A stretch of DNA of 64,000 nt from Lentilactobacillus parafarraginis DSM 18390 = JCM 14109 (lineage in GTDB: Bacteria > Bacillota > Bacilli > Lactobacillales > Lactobacillaceae). Positions 18,776 to 36,324 of the stretch are shown piece after piece. The DNA lies in NCBI RefSeq assembly GCF_001435895.1, contig NZ_AZFZ01000010.1, positions 1 to 64,000 on the forward strand. The letters run 5' to 3'. Within the stretch, counting starts at the first letter, position 1; each line of letters opens with the position of its first letter. Below the pieces are notes generated by a model that saw only the letters and a program-made list of their open reading frames with translations, made no database searches and had not been told where the DNA came from. Both the position numbers and the translations under genes were made by a program.

Positions 18776-18943
18776 TTGACATCTAGCGAGGATGTTGGTA
18801 TATTATAGTCAATGTGTTTTAGGTTTCGATTTTCAAAGGTACTTGTTTTATAGTTTTATGAAATGACTTCCTTGGAATTACGTTCAACTAGATACATTAA
18901 AAAAATTATTTCGCGTGAATAACGCAAGGAGGTTTCATATATT
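18776..18943 (+). promoter_or_regulatory. cold-shock gene promoter and long leader
   Basis: TTGACA (18776-18781), 17 bases, TATATT (18799-18804). The leader from about 18812 to the ATG is about 130 bases, the usual length for cspA-type mRNAs whose untranslated region acts as a temperature-sensitive RNA. I see no consensus cold box that I would insist on. Confidence 0.75.
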
Positions 18944-19147
18944 ATGAAACAAGGTACTGTTAAATGGTTCAACGCTGACAAAGGTTACGGCTTCATTACT
19001 ACTGACGATGGTGACGTATTCGTTCACTTCTCAGCTATCAACAAGGAAGGCTTCAAGTCATTAGACGAAGGCCAAAAAGTTACCCTTGATGTTGAAGATA
19101 GCGACCGTGGCCCACAAGCTGCCAACGTTACTCCAATTGAAGACTAA
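18944..19147 (+). CDS. CspA-family cold-shock protein
   Basis: A 67-residue single cold-shock domain with both RNA-binding motifs: KGYGFIT (RNP1) and VFVHFSAI (RNP2), beginning [14 protein letters not shown]. It acts as an RNA chaperone that melts structure at low temperature. The Shine-Dalgarno AAGGAGG is 13 bases before the ATG. It is monocistronic with a perfect terminator. Which csp paralogue it is cannot be told. Confidence 0.97.
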
Positions 19148-19173
19148 TTAAAAGTTAACAATTAATTTTCGAG

Positions 19174-19198
19174 CCGGCGAGTGATCGCCGGTTTTTTT
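19174..19198 (+). terminator. terminator of the cold-shock gene
   Basis: CCGGCGA-GTGA-TCGCCGG followed by seven T bases; a textbook intrinsic terminator. Confidence 0.95.
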
Positions 19199-19323
19199 GT
19201 GGCCTTTTTTTGAAGAGCGCCAATGTCGGTCATCAATGATATACCCCACCAATAATTAAGGATAGTCAATCAGTCAAAAATGACGTATACTTATTATTGG
19301 ATTTTAACTGAGGAGTAATCATC

Positions 19324-22184: not shown

Positions 22185-23210
22185 TTAAGCTCTTTCTTGA
22201 ACGGCATCCTTCTTGGTGGCTGCTTGCTTCTCGCCGTCCAGAACGGATTGGATGTAACCGTCAACGTCGAAAGTGCCGGAAAATTCTGCCAAATGAACCA
22301 AATTTCTCAGGAAATCATGGGTCTTAGCTTCGTAATGGTATTTCAACCCGAGATCGTAGATGTAACCGTTGATGTAGTCAACTTCGGTCTGACGATTTTT
22401 GGAAATATCCTGATACATGGATGGAAAATGAAGCGGATTGGAAACCCGGCTGACGTATGAAACGGTCGCCCATTCCTCTTCACGCGTGTTCAGTAACGTA
22501 ATGCCAGCTCGCTCGCAGACGTCAAAGGCTTCGTTGATTAACTGCACGCCCAATTTCTTGGCAACCGGCGATTGAATGTACTCGCCCATGCGAATCTTGA
22601 ACATCGTGCACAGCGTGTTGATCACGGAGTTAAAGATGACTTTGGCCATCAGAGTTCCCAGGAAGTTCGTGGTTAGGTTGGGATTCAAGCCCGCCTGTTC
22701 AAATTCAGCGACAATTTTATGAGTCATGTCATCCGGCTTCTCAGTTTCATTTGCCAGATTCATGGAACCAGCGCCCTTTGGCCCAATAAAGTCAACGTCC
22801 CCGGCTTTATTCAAAACCGTCCCAATTAAGGCCGTCCCGCCAAGAACCCGTTCCTTTGGGAAGTACTGATTCAGCTTTTCAATGTGACCCATGCCATTCA
22901 TGCACGTGACGACATACTGCTTATCGTTGAAGAAGCGAGCACTGCGCTTGAGAAAATCGGCTAGTTGATATTGTTTGGTGAACACAATCAACACGTCGGG
23001 ATCGCCCTTATATTCTTCAGGGTAGTAAACGTTAACTGGGACTAAATGCTTATTTTGCCCATCGCGGGAAACGTAAACGCCCTTCTGTTGGCGAATGGCT
23101 TCAACCTGATCTTCCCAAGTATCCACAAAATCAACATCAAACCCGGCCTCTTGTAATAACACTCCGTAACGTAATCCCATTGCACCTGCACCTAAAACTG
23201 TATATTTCAT
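22185..23210 (-). CDS. ketopantoate reductase (PanE/ApbA)-family dehydrogenase
   Basis: The 341-residue protein has an N-terminal Rossmann fold (LGAGAMGLRYGVLL), the family motif TCMNGMGHIEKL and the helical C-terminal domain with KVIFNSVINTLCTMF, containing the conserved Lys-Asn pair. The family reduces 2-ketopantoate, but lactococcal PanE also reduces 2-keto acids from branched-chain amino acids to hydroxy acids. A T-box leader directly upstream means its expression answers to an uncharged tRNA, which fits amino-acid/keto-acid metabolism better than vitamin synthesis. It is longer than typical PanE (about 300). The C-terminal tail is Lys/Ala-rich. Confidence 0.85.
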   Translation of the reverse strand: MKYTVLGAGAMGLRYGVLLQEAGFDVDFVDTWEDQVEAIRQQKGVYVSRDGQNKHLVPVNVYYPEEYKGDPDVLIVFTKQYQLADFLKRSARFFNDKQYVVTCMNGMGHIEKLNQYFPKERVLGGTALIGTVLNKAGDVDFIGPKGAGSMNLANETEKPDDMTHKIVAEFEQAGLNPNLTTNFLGTLMAKVIFNSVINTLCTMFKIRMGEYIQSPVAKKLGVQLINEAFDVCERAGITLLNTREEEWATVSYVSRVSNPLHFPSMYQDISKNRQTEVDYINGYIYDLGLKYHYEAKTHDFLRNLVHLAEFSGTFDVDGYIQSVLDGEKQAATKKDAVQERA

Positions 23211-23276: not shown

Positions 23277-23573
23277 ATAAAAAAGTCGCCCCTCTGTCAC
23301 TAAGACAAAAGGACGACAATTGGCCGCGGTACCACCTTCATAAGCAGTTGACGCCGAAACGCCACCGCTCACTCGTTAACATGCTTTAACGGACAAGTCC
23401 GAAACCGGCTAACATGCACTGCTCACCGATCTATATTCGAAAGCATGAAAGTCACAATCTACTCATTCAATGTCATCTCTCAGTCGCCGAATGACTTTCC
23501 TGGAATTGAATCAGGTAAACGCTTCTTTCAAATTGATACTTCGCATTATGAGATATAAATGATAGGTTGTCAA
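23277..23573 (-). promoter_or_regulatory. T-box riboswitch with promoter, upstream of the panE-like gene
   Basis: On the minus strand: promoter TTGACA (23568-23573), 17 bases, CATAAT (23545-23550). A stem GAAAGTCA/TGACTTTC forms a short stem I base (about 23444-23496). The T-box sequence AGGTGGTACCGCGG lies at 23324-23337. The terminator GTCGTCC...GGGCGAC with a T run is at 23277-23317. Antiterminator formation needs uncharged tRNA. I cannot assign the specifier codon. An 82-codon open frame on this strand (23511-23759) overlaps this promoter, has no Shine-Dalgarno and is not called. Confidence 0.9.
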
Positions 23574-28412: not shown

Positions 28413-29459
<1,047 letters not shown>

Positions 29460-29561: not shown

Positions 29562-31265
29562 TTAGAATCCGATCATGTCGCGGTTGGCATGTCCCGGGGC
29601 AACCATTGGATAAACCTGCTCGGTTACGGGAACCTGGACTTCAACCAGCGTTGACTTCGGATCATCGAAGACATCATTTAACTGCTGTTCTAATGGAATT
29701 TCAGGATCAAGCCGCTGATAATTAATGTCGTAGGCGGCGGCTAATTTCTTGAAATCCGGTTGATGATCAAATAGTGACTTCGAACGGTGATTCGAATAGA
29801 AGGCATCCTGCCATTGTCTAATCATTCCTAATGCATGATTATTCATTAAGAAGATTTTGACGTTTAAGTTTTCAGCCGCTAACACTTCCAGCTCCTCACT
29901 GGTCATCTGAAAGCCGCCATCCCCAACGAAGAGGACAACGTCGCGATCTTGATTGCCAAATTTGGCACCGATCGCGGCTGGCAGCCCATATCCCATGGTT
30001 CCCAGACCACCAGAAGTGACCAATTGCCGCGAATGCTTAAATGGATAGGCCTGAGCCGCCCACATTTGGTGTTGGCCAACATCGGTAACGACAATTGCGT
30101 CACCATTTGTGGCCTTTCCAACTGCCCGAACCACTTCATGGGGATCAAACTCCCCCTTTCCCGGCTTAACACTGTCGGGATGTTGGTCCTGCCAGTCAGT
30201 TGTTAACTGATGCCATGCAAGAATCTGGGGCTTATCAACCGGCCGGCTGTTCATTTCTTGGAGAGCAGCCTTCGCGTCGGCTTCAACCGCATAATCGGCG
30301 TGAAGAATCTTATTTAATTCGTGGGTATCAATATCGATATGCACAATGGTCTTCTGGTCAGCAAAATCCGCTGCCCGTGGAACCATCCGATCATCAAATC
30401 GTGAGCCGATATTTAAGATAAAGTCGCTTTCATCCAGTGCCATGTTGGCGGCGTATGAGCCATGCATCCCGCCCATTCCAAGGAATAGCGGGTCATCACT
30501 TGGAAAAGTTCCTAAACCTAACAGCGTGGTGACAACTGGTAATTCCCAGTTCTGAACGAACTGATTAAATTCTTTAGTTGCGCCAGAAGCGGCAACCCCA
30601 GCCCCAACCACAACGATTGGTTTAGCGGCGTTACTCAAGGCGTTTAACGCCTTGGTAATCGTCTCCTTTTGCGTTTTTCCCAATCGCGGCTTGCTCATTG
30701 CCTTGGTGCGCTTGGCAGCTTCTTCAAAAATGGCGCTGTCGGCAGTCACATCCTTAGGCAAATCGACTAATACAGGGCCCTTACGACCACTTTGAGCAAG
30801 CTTGAATGCTTTAGTAACAACACTATGTAAGTCTTCAACATTCTGAACCTGGAAATTCGCTTTGGTGATCGGTTTGGTCACACTCACAATATCCAACTCT
30901 TGGAATGCATTGGTTCCGATTGCTGATCGCGTTACCTGGCCTGTAAATACAACCAATGGAACTGAGTCCATCTGCGCATCGGCAATTCCAGTCACAACAT
31001 TTCCAGCACCCGGTCCGCTTGTAACACATACAACCCCGGTTTTCCCGGTTGTTTTGGCGTATCCTTCAGCTGCGTGGACCGCGCCCTGTTCATGACGGGT
31101 TAACACATTGCTAAATGATTTCGTGTAAAGCGCGTCATATAAGGGGAGAACGGCACCACCGGGATAGCCAAATAAGAATTCAACATTCTGCTCATTCAAG
31201 GCGTCGACTAAGATTTCGGCACCTGTCTCAGTATCGGTTGCTGGTTTTGATTCTTCTGCTAGCAT
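29562..31265 (-). CDS. ilvB: acetolactate synthase, catalytic subunit
   Basis: A 567-residue ThDP-dependent enzyme joining pyruvate with pyruvate or 2-ketobutyrate, the first common step to Val, Leu and Ile. Visible are the catalytic Glu in LTRHEQGAVHAAEGYA, the ThDP/Mg motif GDGGFQMTSEELEVLAAENL, and the NNHALGMIRQW segment of anabolic AHAS. The ATG at 31265 is chosen over a TTG seven codons upstream, whose region carries the Shine-Dalgarno (GAAAGGA). The small regulatory subunit (ilvN) normally next in line is missing; the 120 bases to ilvC hold no ACT-domain gene. Confidence 0.95.
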   Translation of the reverse strand: MLAEESKPATDTETGAEILVDALNEQNVEFLFGYPGGAVLPLYDALYTKSFSNVLTRHEQGAVHAAEGYAKTTGKTGVVCVTSGPGAGNVVTGIADAQMDSVPLVVFTGQVTRSAIGTNAFQELDIVSVTKPITKANFQVQNVEDLHSVVTKAFKLAQSGRKGPVLVDLPKDVTADSAIFEEAAKRTKAMSKPRLGKTQKETITKALNALSNAAKPIVVVGAGVAASGATKEFNQFVQNWELPVVTTLLGLGTFPSDDPLFLGMGGMHGSYAANMALDESDFILNIGSRFDDRMVPRAADFADQKTIVHIDIDTHELNKILHADYAVEADAKAALQEMNSRPVDKPQILAWHQLTTDWQDQHPDSVKPGKGEFDPHEVVRAVGKATNGDAIVVTDVGQHQMWAAQAYPFKHSRQLVTSGGLGTMGYGLPAAIGAKFGNQDRDVVLFVGDGGFQMTSEELEVLAAENLNVKIFLMNNHALGMIRQWQDAFYSNHRSKSLFDHQPDFKKLAAAYDINYQRLDPEIPLEQQLNDVFDDPKSTLVEVQVPVTEQVYPMVAPGHANRDMIGF

Positions 31266-31364
31266 ATCTGATTCACATCCTTTCAAATCAAGATCATTCT
31301 GACATCGTCACGTTAAGTTGCTCAGAAATATTAATTGCTGAATAACGTTTTGGTGATGGTTGAA

Positions 31365-31677: not shown

Positions 31678-31965
31678 TTGCATTTTTCACAGCTCGTGTT
31701 ATAGTTAGCGTCAAGTTAAAAAATGAGAAATCGATTCAGGAAGAAGTAACTTGACTGACTGTTAGCAAGAGAGTCCTGGGATGCTGGAACAGGATAGCAA
31801 TCGTTAAGTGAAAGTAGGTCCGGTTTGTAATCGAACAGGTGCTGCCCGATATCCAGCAGTGTATGTACTTCACACGATTGAGACAGTTAGTAACATAACC
31901 GTGAACAAAGGTGGTACCGCGTTAATAACGCCCTTTGAAAAACTTTTTTCGAGGGCGTTTTTATT
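31678..31965 (+). promoter_or_regulatory. T-box riboswitch with promoter
   Basis: Promoter TTGCAT (31678-31683), 16 bases, TATAGT (31700-31705). A long structured leader follows with the T-box core AAAGGTGGTACCGCG (about 31908-31921) and the terminator GCCCT...AGGGC with T tract (31930-31963). This is a tRNA-sensing transcription attenuator. The cluster suggests a branched-chain tRNA; an ATC within GATATCC (near 31849) is one candidate specifier, but I could not fold stem I reliably. Confidence 0.9.
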
Positions 31966-32022
31966 TTTCACTTTTTTGCTTTGATAAGTTTTAGATCTTA
32001 AATTCAGAAAGGAATGATGACC

Positions 32023-32742
32023 ATGACGACTAGCATAATCCCAGCAGCCGCAAATGCGCCAATGCTGAAATACTTCGAATCACAAGGATTCAACGAACTT
32101 TATATCGACAAGGACTCGGTGGAAAACCAATTATTGGGTGGAGATACTAACCGAGTGTTAGCCCTGTCTGACTATGCGCATTATCTGCAGTGCATGAGAA
32201 ATGCTACCAGTGCTCACCTGCTTGCCGATACGTCATTCGGCGGCGATGATGCCGCTAACTGGGCCGACACTGCCGACCAGTTGGTTCGTTGTGGCGCCAA
32301 CACAATCCTAATCAGCGATTACCAAAGCAAGACCTCTAACCACCAGCCCAACCTCCTGCTTGATGAGGACTTTGAGGCTAAGATTCGAACGATGAAGGCT
32401 GAATTGACCGATACAAACACCGATGCAATGGTTAACTTGGGTGGTTTTTCAACGTACGGTATTGACGGCTTGAAAAAGCGCATCCAGATTGCCCGTTCCG
32501 AAAACATCGCCAAGATCTCAATCAGCAACGTTGCCGCAAAGGACCTTTCAATCATCGGGGCCATTATGAAGCCAAACCAAGAAATTGGTTTGGCGATCGA
32601 TAACCCAAAGATGACATTTGGCAGTGCGCAACAGGTTAACCCTGCATTTGTTTTGGATACTTATCATCCCAAGAAAGCCACCCAACAGTGGGTTCAGAAA
32701 GCTGGTCCTTCAGTCGTTCTGCGCCTTTACATGGGCAATTAA
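32023..32742 (+). CDS. PEP-mutase/isocitrate-lyase-like protein, T-box controlled
   Basis: The 239-residue protein weakly matches the PEP mutase/isocitrate lyase TIM-barrel superfamily: LLADTSFGGDDAANWADTAD resembles the (V/I)D.DTGYGD segment, followed by QLVRCGANTILISDYQ (the aGa.gi.iED strand) and later AMVNLGGFSTYGIDGLKKRI. Several usual catalytic residues, including the KKCGH-type loop, are absent, so a lyase activity is unsure. It sits between ilvBC and ilvA and is directly under a T-box, so it should serve branched-chain amino-acid or keto-acid metabolism. The ATG at 32023 is preferred to two ATGs overlapping the Shine-Dalgarno. I cannot name the reaction. Confidence 0.7.
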   Translation: MTTSIIPAAANAPMLKYFESQGFNELYIDKDSVENQLLGGDTNRVLALSDYAHYLQCMRNATSAHLLADTSFGGDDAANWADTADQLVRCGANTILISDYQSKTSNHQPNLLLDEDFEAKIRTMKAELTDTNTDAMVNLGGFSTYGIDGLKKRIQIARSENIAKISISNVAAKDLSIIGAIMKPNQEIGLAIDNPKMTFGSAQQVNPAFVLDTYHPKKATQQWVQKAGPSVVLRLYMGN

Positions 32743-32766: not shown

Positions 32767-32810
32767 AAAATCCGGGACCACTGTCAATTTCGCAGTGGTC
32801 CCGGATTTTT
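32767..32810 (+). terminator. strong terminator between the T-box gene and ilvA
   Basis: A perfect 17-bp stem (AAAATCCGGGACCACTG with complement) and a run of T. It begins 25 bases after the upstream stop and ends 27 bases before the ilvA ATG, leaving no room for a promoter in between. Confidence 0.92.
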
Positions 32811-32837: not shown

Positions 32838-34106
32838 ATGCAAACAAGAACAAGTAAACTTAACGCAACTGATGTGACCAACGCCTACGAGGTTTTAAAG
32901 CCGATTGTCACCCATACGGATCTACAGTACAGCCGCTACTTATCCGATCGGTACCACGCCAACGTGTATCTGAAACGTGAGGATCAACAGCTGGTTCGCT
33001 CCTTCAAACTTCGCGGGGCCTACTACGCCATTTCCCAAACACCGGAAGGCACCCGAAAAGCCGGGGTTGTCTGTGCAAGTGCCGGAAATCACGCCCAGGG
33101 GGTTGCCTGGACCTGTAAACGGATGAAAATTCCGGCCACCATCTTCATGCCAACCACCACCCCTGCCCAAAAGGTCGGTCAGGTGAAATACTTTGGCGGC
33201 GACTACGTGACCATCAAGTTAACCGGCGACACATTTGACCAATCCGCGGACGCGGCTTTGGACTTCTGTCAGGAAAACGGCCAAACCTTCATTGCTCCGT
33301 TCGACAACCTCAACACGATGGCGGGTCAGGGGACCATCGCCGTTGAAATCTTTAACGACGCAAAAAAACAGAACCTCCAAATCGACGACCTGTTCGTTGC
33401 AATCGGCGGCGGTGGTCTGCTAAGTGGGATTAGTACATACACCAAGTCCGTGAGTCCCAAAACTGAAATTGTCGGCGTTGAACCCAGTGGTGCCGCTTCG
33501 ATGAAGGCCGCATTTGATGCTGGGCACCCCGTCGATCTCGAGCAACTGGATAAATTTGTCGACGGCGCGGCGGTTCAAAAGGTCGGCGAACTGACCTACG
33601 CAACTTGTCGGGCAAACGTGGATCGATTATGCCAGGTGCCGGACGGACAGGTCTGCAATACAATTTTGGACCTGTATAGCAAAACGGCGATCGTTGCCGA
33701 ACCGGCCGGTGCCCTGAGTGTTGCCGCCCTGGAAGCCAACAAGGATAAGATTGCCGGCAAAACGGTGGTTTGTGTCATCTCTGGTGGGAATAACGACATC
33801 AACCGGATGCAGGAAATCGAAGAACGGTCGCTCATCTACAACGGCCAGCAACACTACTTCATCGTCAACTTCGCGCAACGGGCCGGTGCCCTCCGTGAAT
33901 TTGTCAATGAAGTCCTCAATCCCGACGATGATATCACGAAGTTTGAGTACACCAAAAAGGTCAACAGTACCATGGGCCCCGTCCTCATCGGGGTTCGGCT
34001 TGGAAACGTTGATAACCTGGACGCGTTATTGGCCCGCGTGAAGCGCTTCGACCCGAAGTACATTAACCTGCAGGAAAACCAAATGCTCTACCGGATGTTA
34101 GTTTAA
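32838..34106 (+). CDS. ilvA: threonine ammonia-lyase (threonine deaminase)
   Basis: A 422-residue PLP enzyme converting threonine to 2-ketobutyrate, the entry to isoleucine. PLP-binding Lys57 is in VRSFKLRGAYYA; the phosphate-binding GGGGL loop is VAIGGGGLLSG. A C-terminal ACT-like regulatory domain (about residues 335-422, HYFIVNFAQRAGALREFVNE) implies feedback control by isoleucine/valine; the short form has one such domain. The start at 32838 has AAAGGAAAG upstream; a longer open frame from 32688 runs through the terminator and the end of the upstream gene and is not real. How it is transcribed behind that terminator is unclear. Confidence 0.94.
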   Translation: MQTRTSKLNATDVTNAYEVLKPIVTHTDLQYSRYLSDRYHANVYLKREDQQLVRSFKLRGAYYAISQTPEGTRKAGVVCASAGNHAQGVAWTCKRMKIPATIFMPTTTPAQKVGQVKYFGGDYVTIKLTGDTFDQSADAALDFCQENGQTFIAPFDNLNTMAGQGTIAVEIFNDAKKQNLQIDDLFVAIGGGGLLSGISTYTKSVSPKTEIVGVEPSGAASMKAAFDAGHPVDLEQLDKFVDGAAVQKVGELTYATCRANVDRLCQVPDGQVCNTILDLYSKTAIVAEPAGALSVAALEANKDKIAGKTVVCVISGGNNDINRMQEIEERSLIYNGQQHYFIVNFAQRAGALREFVNEVLNPDDDITKFEYTKKVNSTMGPVLIGVRLGNVDNLDALLARVKRFDPKYINLQENQMLYRMLV

Positions 34107-34347: not shown

Positions 34348-34416
34348 ATGAAAAACACTAACGCCACATCATTACAAATTTTAGTCTTAGTCCTCGTCGT
34401 GATTATTATTAGCTAG
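34348..34416 (+). CDS. Ile/Leu/Val-rich leader peptide of ilvD
   Basis: A 22-codon open frame with GAAAGGA ten bases before its ATG. Residues 1-10 are MKNTNATSLQ; residues 11-21 are only Ile, Leu and Val (4 Ile, 3 Leu, 4 Val), then Ser and stop. Such a run of the pathway's end-product codons is the hallmark of ribosome-mediated transcription attenuation, as for the enterobacterial ilv and lactococcal ilv-leu leaders. A hairpin (GACGGGC/GCCCGTC, 34416-34441) starts at its stop codon and a strong terminator follows. It should sense charged branched-chain tRNAs during translation. It is too short for ordinary gene finders. Confidence 0.88.
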   Translation: MKNTNATSLQILVLVLVVIIIS

Positions 34417-34581: not shown

Positions 34582-36324
34582 ATGGCAAATACACTTGATT
34601 TTAACGCAGAGGGGGAAGGAATCCATAAACGGTCCGACAAGATTAAAGTCGGCGTTGATGAAGCCCCTTCCAAGAGTTTGCTTTATGCAACCGGTCGAGT
34701 AAAGAACGAACACGACATGAAGAAGCCGTTTATTGCGATCTGTAATTCGTATATTGAAATTGTTCCCGGCCACATTCATTTACGGAAGTTAGCAGATATC
34801 GCCAAACGCGCGATTCGTGAGGCCGGCGGAATTCCGTTCGAATTTAACACAATTGGGGTTGATGACGGAATCGCCATGGGCCATGTCGGCATGCGGTACT
34901 CGTTACCAAGTCGGGAAATCATCGCCGACTCAGCCGAAACCGTAATTAACGCGCACTGGTTTGACGGCGTTTTGTTCATGCCAAACTGTGACAAGATCAC
35001 CCCAGGCATGTTAATGGCCGCCGCGCGAACCAACGTCCCATCAGTCTTCGTATCTGGTGGTCCAATGAGAGCCGGGGTTGATCCTAAGGGTCGCGCCACT
35101 ACTTTATCAACCATGTTTGAAGCCGTTGGGGCCTTTAAGAGCGGCAAGTTATCCAAGGAACACCTCTTGGAATATGAAAAGAACGCCTGTCCAGGATGTG
35201 GTTCATGTGCCGGGATGTTTACCGCTAACTCAATGAACTCACTGATGGAAGCTTTAGGAGTTGCCCTTCCATACAACGGGACGGCATTAGCTGATTCGGA
35301 TGAACGAAAAGATTTAGTCCGCCGAGCCGCCAAACAAGTGATGTACATGGTTAAGAACAACATTAAGCCCCGTGACCTGATGACCAAGGAAGCCTTCGAT
35401 GATGCCTATGCGCTTGATATGGCAATGGGTGGTTCAACCAACACCATTCTTCATGGATTGGCAATTGCCCACGAAGCCGGCATCAAGTACAACTTGGATG
35501 ATATCAACAAGATCAGCCGCAAGGTACCTTACTTAGCTAAGATTGCCCCATCATCTCACTGGACGATGCAAGATGTTCACGCTGCCGGTGGCATTCCCGC
35601 AATCTTAAATGAATTAATCGAAAAGGGTGACATTCTTCATCCTGATCGAATGACGGTTACCGGCAAGACCCTTCGCGAGAACGTTGCTGGCGCCCACACC
35701 AAGAATCCAGAAGTCATTCACACCGTTGACAACGCCTACTCAACGGTTGGCGGCTTGTCAGTCCTTCACGGTAACCTTGCCAAAGACGGTGCGGTTATCA
35801 AAGTCGGTGGCGTTGACCCAGACATTCGCAAGCAAGGTAAGTTTACTGGAACCGCAATCTGCTACGATTCCCATGATGAAGCCGTTCACGGCATCGATTC
35901 CGGCGAAGTTAAACCAGGCCACGTTGTCGTCATTCGCTATGAAGGTCCTAAAGGTGGTCCCGGCATGCCAGAAATGCTGAACCCAACCTCAAGTATCGTT
36001 GGTCGGGGCTTAGGTCGTGACGTTGGTTTGATTACCGATGGGCGTTTCTCAGGTGCCACCCGGGGAATTGCCGTTGGCCATATTTCACCAGAAGCTGCTG
36101 AAGGCGGCACCATCGCCCTGGTTAAGAACGGCGATCAAATCACGATTGATTTGAAGAACCATGACATTTCCGTTGATGTGTCCGATGAAGAACTTGCGGA
36201 ACGGCGCAAGCACTTACCTAGATTTGAACCAAAAGTTCGTTCAGGTTACCTTGCCCGTTATCAAGCACTGGTTACTTCAGCCAACACGGGTGGTGTTATG
36301 AAAGGTTACGACGAATTATTCTAA
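34582..36324 (+). CDS. ilvD: dihydroxy-acid dehydratase
   Basis: The 580-residue Fe-S enzyme dehydrates dihydroxyisovalerate and its homologue to the keto acids of valine and isoleucine. Cluster ligands and motifs are visible: [16 protein letters not shown] and [20 protein letters not shown], plus the C-terminal [13 protein letters not shown] and [13 protein letters not shown] blocks. Length is slightly over the usual 560. AGAGAGGATGG precedes the ATG, and transcription is probably set by the leader peptide and attenuator just upstream. The transporter gene follows at 46 bases, apparently in the same operon. Confidence 0.96.

Follow-up and report, generated by a model that had tools for sequence, protein, structure and literature searches.

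Why does a gene for a lyase-like protein without lyase residues carry its own T-box in the midst of a branched-chain amino acid cluster? The gene, here called SMALLilv, lies within a window of 64,000 nucleotides, the whole stretch of DNA that was analysed, on contig C2 of the 3.08-Mb genome of Lentilactobacillus parafarraginis. Its neighbours are set out in Table 1; 3′ of ilvD follows an SBF-family transporter whose best NCBIfam match is PanS (275 bits, below the model cut-off of 400). The named loci found belong to Lentilactobacillus hilgardii, L. farraginis and L. raoultii, with protein identities of 90, 91 and 83%, respectively.

Table 1. Coordinates, strand and supporting evidence for features of the ilv locus in the window
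Feature	Position	Strand	Evidence
ilvC	28413..29456	-	Pfam KARI_N + KARI_C
ilvB, acetohydroxyacid synthase catalytic subunit, without adjoining ilvN	29562..31286	-	Pfam; ilvN searches
T-box leader, specifier GUA (Val), antiterminator core GGUGGUACC	31730..31938	+	cmscan RF00230; GAAAGUA as in host valS T-box
SMALLilv, 242-aa protein of predicted PEPM/ICL fold without canonical catalytic residues	32014..32742	+	ORF, profiles, model, selection
Region 1, codons 1-40, synonymous sites nearly frozen	32014..32133	+	identical-codon fraction 0.87 (30 codons, four species)
Region 2, codons ~176-208, synonymous sites nearly frozen, putative embedded ilvA cis-element	32539..32637	+	best 30-codon window 0.94
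Perfect 10-bp inverted repeat with GAAA loop, inside region 2	32571..32594	+	sequence
Terminator-like hairpin between the SMALLilv gene and ilvA	32767..32809	+	dG -31.0
ilvA, threonine deaminase	32838..34106	+	Pfam PALP + Thr_dehydrat_C
ORF MKNTNATSLQILVLVLVVIIIS, 22 codons, BCAA-rich, probable ilvD leader peptide	34348..34416	+	sequence + translation
ilvD	34582..36324	+	Pfam

The T-box that the preliminary description had placed ahead of the gene is borne out by cmscan, which matches RF00230 completely (model positions 1–219) at 71.8 bits (E = 7.4e-15). The gathering score of RF00230 is 93, so a default Rfam scan omits this element and a permissive scan recovers it; among the 47 T-box matches in the host genome at E ≤ 0.01, 33 lie below the gathering score and 14 pass. 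Stem I with its specifier loop and the UGGN antiterminator core (here UGGU) are present. The T-box serves the SMALLilv gene, which a strong terminator-like hairpin sets apart from ilvA. Its specifier loop reads GAAA-GUA-G, and GAAAGUA also occurs in the T-box of the host valS, a gene called by NCBIfam NF004349 (valine--tRNA ligase, 761 bits against a cut-off of 704). A T-box core is found at 13 of 15 orthologous loci, and all 13 display a valine codon (GUA in nine, GUU in four), with the base preceding GU variable; at the G333 and G408 loci the core was looked for and none was recognisable. SMALLilv is probably switched on upon valine shortage.

Other RNA elements were observed in passing. A T-box match (23306–23536, minus strand, 52 bits) lies upstream of a PanE/ApbA-family dehydrogenase gene in the window (22185–23210), and elsewhere a second PanE/ApbA-family gene (L037) stands behind a T-box whose codon, read by eye, looks like one for isoleucine. 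A cspA thermoregulator RNA match (18834–19199, 86.1 bits, above the gathering score of 78) lies downstream of a Clp-like ATPase ORF, also by eye.

SMALLilv matches at E ≤ 1e-8 occur in 40 of 397 Lactobacillaceae genomes, and 15 of these hold the ilv-linked form, each with at least 189 bits. All 15 orthologues are divergent from ilvB-ilvC (in G016, ilvB is split by a contig break and ilvC is on another contig), and ilvA comes next in 11, the exceptions being G131, G315, G327 and G339. This neighbourhood survey agrees with the ilv linkage that had been proposed, against which unlinked homologues would have counted: all orthologues found are ilv-linked. ilvC itself is present in 48 of the 397 genomes, all 15 SMALLilv hosts included. 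In a 295-genome sample of the order, the ilv-linked form was found in the window's own genome only, and four other genomes gave weaker matches of 65.7–70.5 bits.

What kind of protein is it? Pfam at E ≤ 1 returns only PEP_mutase (PF13714, 24.4 bits, E = 2.5e-5, under the curated cut-off of 31.5) and no ACT domain. A profile of the 15 orthologues searched against the PDB finds phosphonopyruvate hydrolase (1.6e-8) and PEP mutase (3.4e-8), and also PrpB and petal death protein. An AlphaFold2 model built with four sequences (mean pLDDT 70.1, pTM 0.73; residues 1–13, 198–209 and 229–233 poorly modelled) has as its best structural match the oxaloacetate decarboxylase 3b8i (Z 18.4, 2.9 Å, 201 residues), followed by methylisocitrate lyases and their relatives. 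Among the 50 PDB entries listed, the top 36 are PEP-mutase/isocitrate-lyase (PEPM/ICL) proteins or labelled so (Z 15.2–18.4); OMP decarboxylase is the next kind of protein at Z 15.0, a small margin at the low end, and structural absences hold for the Foldseek-ranked chains only. SMALLilv has, by its model, a PEPM/ICL-type barrel fold; the superfamily assignment of the preliminary description stands, and no other fold displaces it as best match.

The roles of the catalytic residues of PEPM/ICL enzymes are known, and petal death protein is a 2-alkylmalate/oxaloacetate lyase. We compared the catalytic columns of the 15 orthologues with those of 35 small and 37 big (BIG) partners from a related two-protein operon, in BIG numbering. 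BIG keeps D86, D88, E115, K121, C123, G124, H125 and R158 in 37 of 37 proteins and E188 in 36 (D in one); the catalytic residues of a 2-alkylmalate lyase of the petal death protein type are thus present in every BIG and absent in SMALLilv. The small partners keep D86 in all 35, have Q for D88 in 34 and N for E115 in 29, and none has C123. Among the metal ligands of the orthologues, the D86 column holds D in 12 proteins and E in the other three, D88 survives in one and E115 in none. K121, C123, G124, H125, R158 and E188 occur in none of the 15, an R stands in the R122 column of one, and the catalytic loop (K-R-C-G-H) is gapped in several orthologue rows. D116 is found in all 87 aligned proteins. 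The loss of the usual catalytic residues, claimed earlier for the window's protein, extends in this way to the canonical set in all 15 orthologues, and the alignment makes ordinary PEPM/ICL catalysis by SMALLilv unlikely. Of the two roles that had been proposed, the supply of a keto acid through standard PEPM/ICL catalysis is unlikely without these residues, and regulation of the pathway fits better as a candidate.

The protein is nonetheless under selection, since dN/dS is 0.025–0.11 among pairs with computable dS. Residues invariant in 15 of 15 orthologues include N14, Y30, Q39, Y54, Y57, D102, R156, D196 and D215, and the position of several of them at strand ends of the model suggests that a pocket is retained. 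SMALLilv could be imagined as an enzyme still, one whose chemistry has changed. It might work without a cofactor as a lyase, decarboxylase or isomerase on some keto acid in valine/isoleucine synthesis, using invariant residues at strand ends of the barrel; N14, Y30, D102, D196 and D215 are invariant, and several of them lie at such ends. Strong purifying selection and an unfailing position beside ilvBC fit such an enzyme. The residues of known PEPM/ICL enzymes are gone, however, identity to the window's protein is 31–47% in the 10 orthologues outside the genus, less than one would expect if it catalysed a step in a conserved pathway, and the small partner of the pair operon is equally bare beside an intact protein. 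Altogether, we find this explanation somewhat unlikely.

The pair operon itself offers clues to the origin of SMALLilv. BIG, an intact protein of ∼300 residues resembling petal death protein (best PDB match 1zlp, E = 2.2e-69), is encoded at 37 places in 33 of the 397 genomes, the host's included, and each adjoins a small, catalytically bare partner (SMALL) whose ORF end often overlaps that of BIG. In G330, SMALL and BIG are fused in one 546-codon ORF (L126 4649–6289; small profile at residues 14–185, big at 239–535), so the small kind can be a subunit. A T-box core precedes 25 of the 37 small-partner ORFs examined, and 23 share the GUA signature. One kind of MFS transporter lies within three ORFs in 24 of 30 listed pair loci and is 52–55% identical to the MFS protein encoded after leuABCD in the host, G009 and G131; leuABCD of G016 has no adjoining MFS gene, and three other MFS proteins of the window reach at most ∼26% identity in alignments of more than 100 residues. 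In the pair operon of the host itself, the MFS gene (L018 3063–4378) is apparently split into two overlapping ORFs, reflecting a frameshift or an assembly error. No ilvC is found in 15 of the 33 BIG genomes.

In a tree of 57 proteins the 15 orthologues form one clade among the small partners (SH-aLRT 100), and sequence relationships place the SMALLilv family as a descendant of the bare small partner of this lyase-like pair operon. 2-Isopropylmalate, when cleaved in a retro-aldol reaction, yields 2-ketoisovalerate and acetate. From this chemistry we infer that the SMALL/BIG pair may salvage imported 2-alkylmalate for valine. Could SMALLilv, then, be an alternative small subunit that works only with BIG, feeding 2-ketoisovalerate from imported 2-alkylmalate into the ilv pathway? 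Its place among the small partners, the SMALL-BIG fusion, the valine T-boxes ahead of both operons and the presence of BIG in the host would all be in keeping with this. However, the BIG matches listed at E ≤ 1e-40 include none from seven of the 15 SMALLilv genomes (G016, G018, G035, G095, G327, G333 and G408), so the ilv-linked form appears independent of BIG, and we regard the proposal as improbable.

A possible partner closer to hand is IlvB. It is the best candidate because the SMALLilv gene always lies opposite ilvB and because none of the 15 genomes was found to have an ilvN next to ilvB. PF10369, the ilvN C-terminal domain, is found in none of them, and ilvN adjoins ilvB in 17 of the 33 ilvC genomes without SMALLilv against none of the 15 with it. 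In the other 16 of the 33, ilvN was unrecognised, so these appear to have neither; in G163, a gap of 330 bases between ilvB and ilvC could hold an unrecognised ilvN. A single SMALLilv genome has a PF22629 match above the cut-off (G095, in a 239-codon frame on another contig), and most of the other 14 give weak matches, among them 89-codon frames far from ilvB in G000 (E = 0.0079) and G019 (E = 0.0047); in our judgement the frames of these three genomes encode other ACT proteins. As a sharp test, ilvN replacement is weakened by two circumstances, that both traits are largely split by genus and that 16 genomes appear to have neither, and it serves as a lead only.

In the IlvB tree, rooted at its midpoint, the 15 hosts all fall on the same side of a 20-row branch (SH-aLRT 95). 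The same branch holds G091, G258, G321, G371 and G380, which have neither an intact SMALLilv gene nor ilvN. Since a related IlvB persists in these five genomes without either, IlvB does not appear to depend on SMALLilv, and the gene is, on this comparison of genomes, useful but dispensable. A separate observation concerns the closely related genomes G125 and G151 (L116 and L117), whose IlvB proteins are 85% identical against 98–99% for four neighbour proteins, a possible ilvB replacement.

The SMALLilv ORF has a second peculiarity, in its synonymous sites. Where a residue is conserved among four Lentilactobacillus species, the codon is also identical in a fraction of 0.37–0.62 over most of the gene, 0.82–0.85 in windows on the first 40–50 codons and up to 0.97 near codons 176–208; these two stretches are regions 1 and 2 of Table 1. 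The best 30-codon windows of other genes, in three or four species each, reach 0.75 in ilvB, 0.71 in ilvD, 0.65 in ilvA, 0.64 in the SBF gene, 0.63 in lplA and 0.51 in an ABC gene. In the pair operon they reach 0.62 in the small partner, which has no such frozen region, and 0.57 in BIG. An ilvC window reaches 0.88, but the overall level of that gene is high (0.68); as ilvC also has high windows, region 1 alone is weak evidence. Outside the first 45 codons, none of 5000 shuffles reaches the observed 30-column maximum. Valine specificity, the related two-protein operon and these frozen sites all go beyond the preliminary description.

Region 2 is still shared with the others by G016 (0.73–0.81), whose protein is 58% identical. 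It is unconstrained between G339 and G315, where no ilvA lies downstream (0.22–0.37 against 0.55 overall, a single pair), and mixed between G327 and G339, also without ilvA (0.22–0.64 on 9–13 codons, overall 0.43). Among G333, G408 and G095 the windows from codon 169 through 199 show a raised fraction of 0.59–0.78, against 0.55 overall, and the G125 and G151 sequences are too similar to judge. The inverted repeat within region 2 has no second copy in the genome within three mismatches, so nothing points to an operator family. Against codon shuffles, the region-2 hairpin gives a clear z of −6.7 in G003, a moderate −3.7 to −3.9 in G018, G019 and G016, and a weak −3.0 in the window, where 37% of shuffled genes contain an equally stable stretch; both the window's gene and that of G016 have lower-z stretches elsewhere. 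The region-2 hairpin falls outside the four lowest-z stretches in G095, G333 and G408, whose aligned place has a different hairpin, and it was not seen in G035, G125 and G151. G016 keeps it even though ilvA lies ∼500 nucleotides further on, without the same terminator.

Control of ilvA from within the gene is suggested from another side by its decay. A strong hairpin, the putative terminator, separates SMALLilv from ilvA at all 10 short-gap orthologous loci. G321, G371 and G380 have, in place of the full gene, an ORF of 87–92 codons before ilvA. An unrelated leader peptide was considered for this ORF and rejected, as the G321 ORF shares 40 identical bases with G333 and its end, in a shifted frame, resembles that of the G333 gene; by these similarities the short ORF is probably a remnant of SMALLilv. 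All three remnants keep Ile-rich codons, hairpins and the terminator ahead of ilvA. In L183, L184 and L185 the short ORF has two strong hairpins (15 and 11 bp), the first with compensatory changes seen by eye, and then a terminator. A search for antiterminator pairing did better than shuffles at the 0.05 level in one of 12 loci only (G035, where 0.005 of shuffles were as low), and no consistent antiterminator emerged.

An overlapping antisense gene is a possible cause of the frozen sites that we do not favour. One antisense frame is open across region 2 in all five Lentilactobacillus sequences (53–113 codons stop to stop), but counted from a start codon it spans anything between 21 and 106 codons, and it is closed in nine of 10 other orthologues, G327 being the one in which it is open. 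Region 2 is perhaps instead a cis-element for ilvA inside coding sequence. The extreme form of this idea, in which the ORF persists chiefly because it is a long cis leader for ilvA and the protein does nothing, would account for the frozen sites and for remnants that keep the 3′ element and terminator and not the protein, but it is very improbable given the dN/dS values and the persistence of both protein and T-box in the four genomes where ilvA does not follow.

Attenuation may be familiar to this host, as the BCAA-rich short ORFs ahead of its ilvD and leuA genes suggest. ORF MKNTNATSLQILVLVLVVIIIS, with the inverted repeats that follow it, is probably a Leu/Val/Ile attenuator leader ahead of ilvD. 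Upstream of leuABCD-MFS (L200, G000:C203), a T-box match (739–976, 52.9 bits) is followed by a 26-codon ORF (1238–1318) ending ATTLLVLLL, possibly a tandem of T-box and Leu-rich attenuator; LeuA of this locus has 387 residues and no C-terminal regulatory domain by Pfam.

Taken jointly, these lines of evidence lead us to favour, tentatively, a reading in which SMALLilv is a pseudoenzyme that regulates or assists the ilv enzymes, and its mRNA also carries control of ilvA. Uncharged tRNA-Val would let transcription read through the T-box, and SMALLilv would be made. The protein would do no ordinary PEPM/ICL chemistry and, because the canonical residues are missing, would most likely bind rather than convert a ligand, its old barrel pocket perhaps sensing a keto acid or a 2-alkylmalate. 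In this capacity it would serve the valine/isoleucine enzymes, IlvB most probably, as a subunit with a regulatory or accessory function. Meanwhile the 3′ portion of the ORF, with region 2 and the hairpin after the gene, would act in cis as a leader controlling read-through into ilvA. A single transcript could in this way combine two signals: valine, sensed by the T-box, and a second, plausibly isoleucine, sensed by translation of the SMALLilv ORF.

A more specific version assigns SMALLilv a dual job: (i) in trans, the protein would replace IlvN as the ligand-sensing subunit of acetohydroxyacid synthase (AHAS); (ii) in cis, the 3′ end of the ORF would couple isoleucine supply to ilvA. The gene would derive from the inactive subunit of a salvage lyase, an enzyme that forms 2-ketoisovalerate out of a 2-alkylmalate taken up by the cell, for instance 2-isopropylmalate. 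So detailed a scheme is, we think, rather unlikely to hold in full.

We found no published account of the SMALLilv family or of such an ilvA leader, although T-box catalogues in supplementary files may list the gene; 'phosphonomutase' is absent from the main texts of PMC3766115 and PMC2494555, whose relevant passages are silent on the SMALLilv gene. The finding points to a pseudoenzyme family tied to valine by its regulation, and SMALLilv may be a new kind of pathway regulator. The related operon of enzyme and pseudoenzyme may give food bacteria a salvage pathway for branched-chain keto acids, and a protein-coding gene may double as an attenuator leader.

Several known systems offer points of comparison. 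With T-box riboswitches of RF00230 the SMALLilv leader shares a complete match, the UGGU core and a valine specifier, but it governs a gene without assigned function, and the specifiers of its orthologues are either GUA or GUU. With the PEPM/ICL superfamily (PrpB, the 3b8i oxaloacetate decarboxylase, phosphonopyruvate hydrolase and PEP mutase) the protein shares its predicted barrel and its sequence profile, whereas it lacks the canonical metal and catalytic positions save one acidic residue and has 242 residues against 301 in BIG. Petal death protein (1zlp) is the counterpart of the BIG partner; SMALLilv represents another, apparently non-catalytic line with no BIG adjoining. Like the AHAS regulatory subunit IlvN/IlvH, SMALLilv is encoded beside ilvB, and the two were never found together at ilvB among the 48 ilvC genomes; it is a predicted barrel in which no ACT domain was found, so the likeness to IlvN/IlvH is an analogy only. 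Ribosome-mediated leaders of BCAA operons include the leucine-rich attenuator of S. aureus (PMC5794164). With attenuators of this type the SMALLilv/ilvA arrangement shares isoleucine codons followed by a hairpin and a putative terminator before ilvA; unlike those leaders, whose antiterminator has no counterpart found here, the SMALLilv ORF encodes a 242-residue protein predicted to fold.
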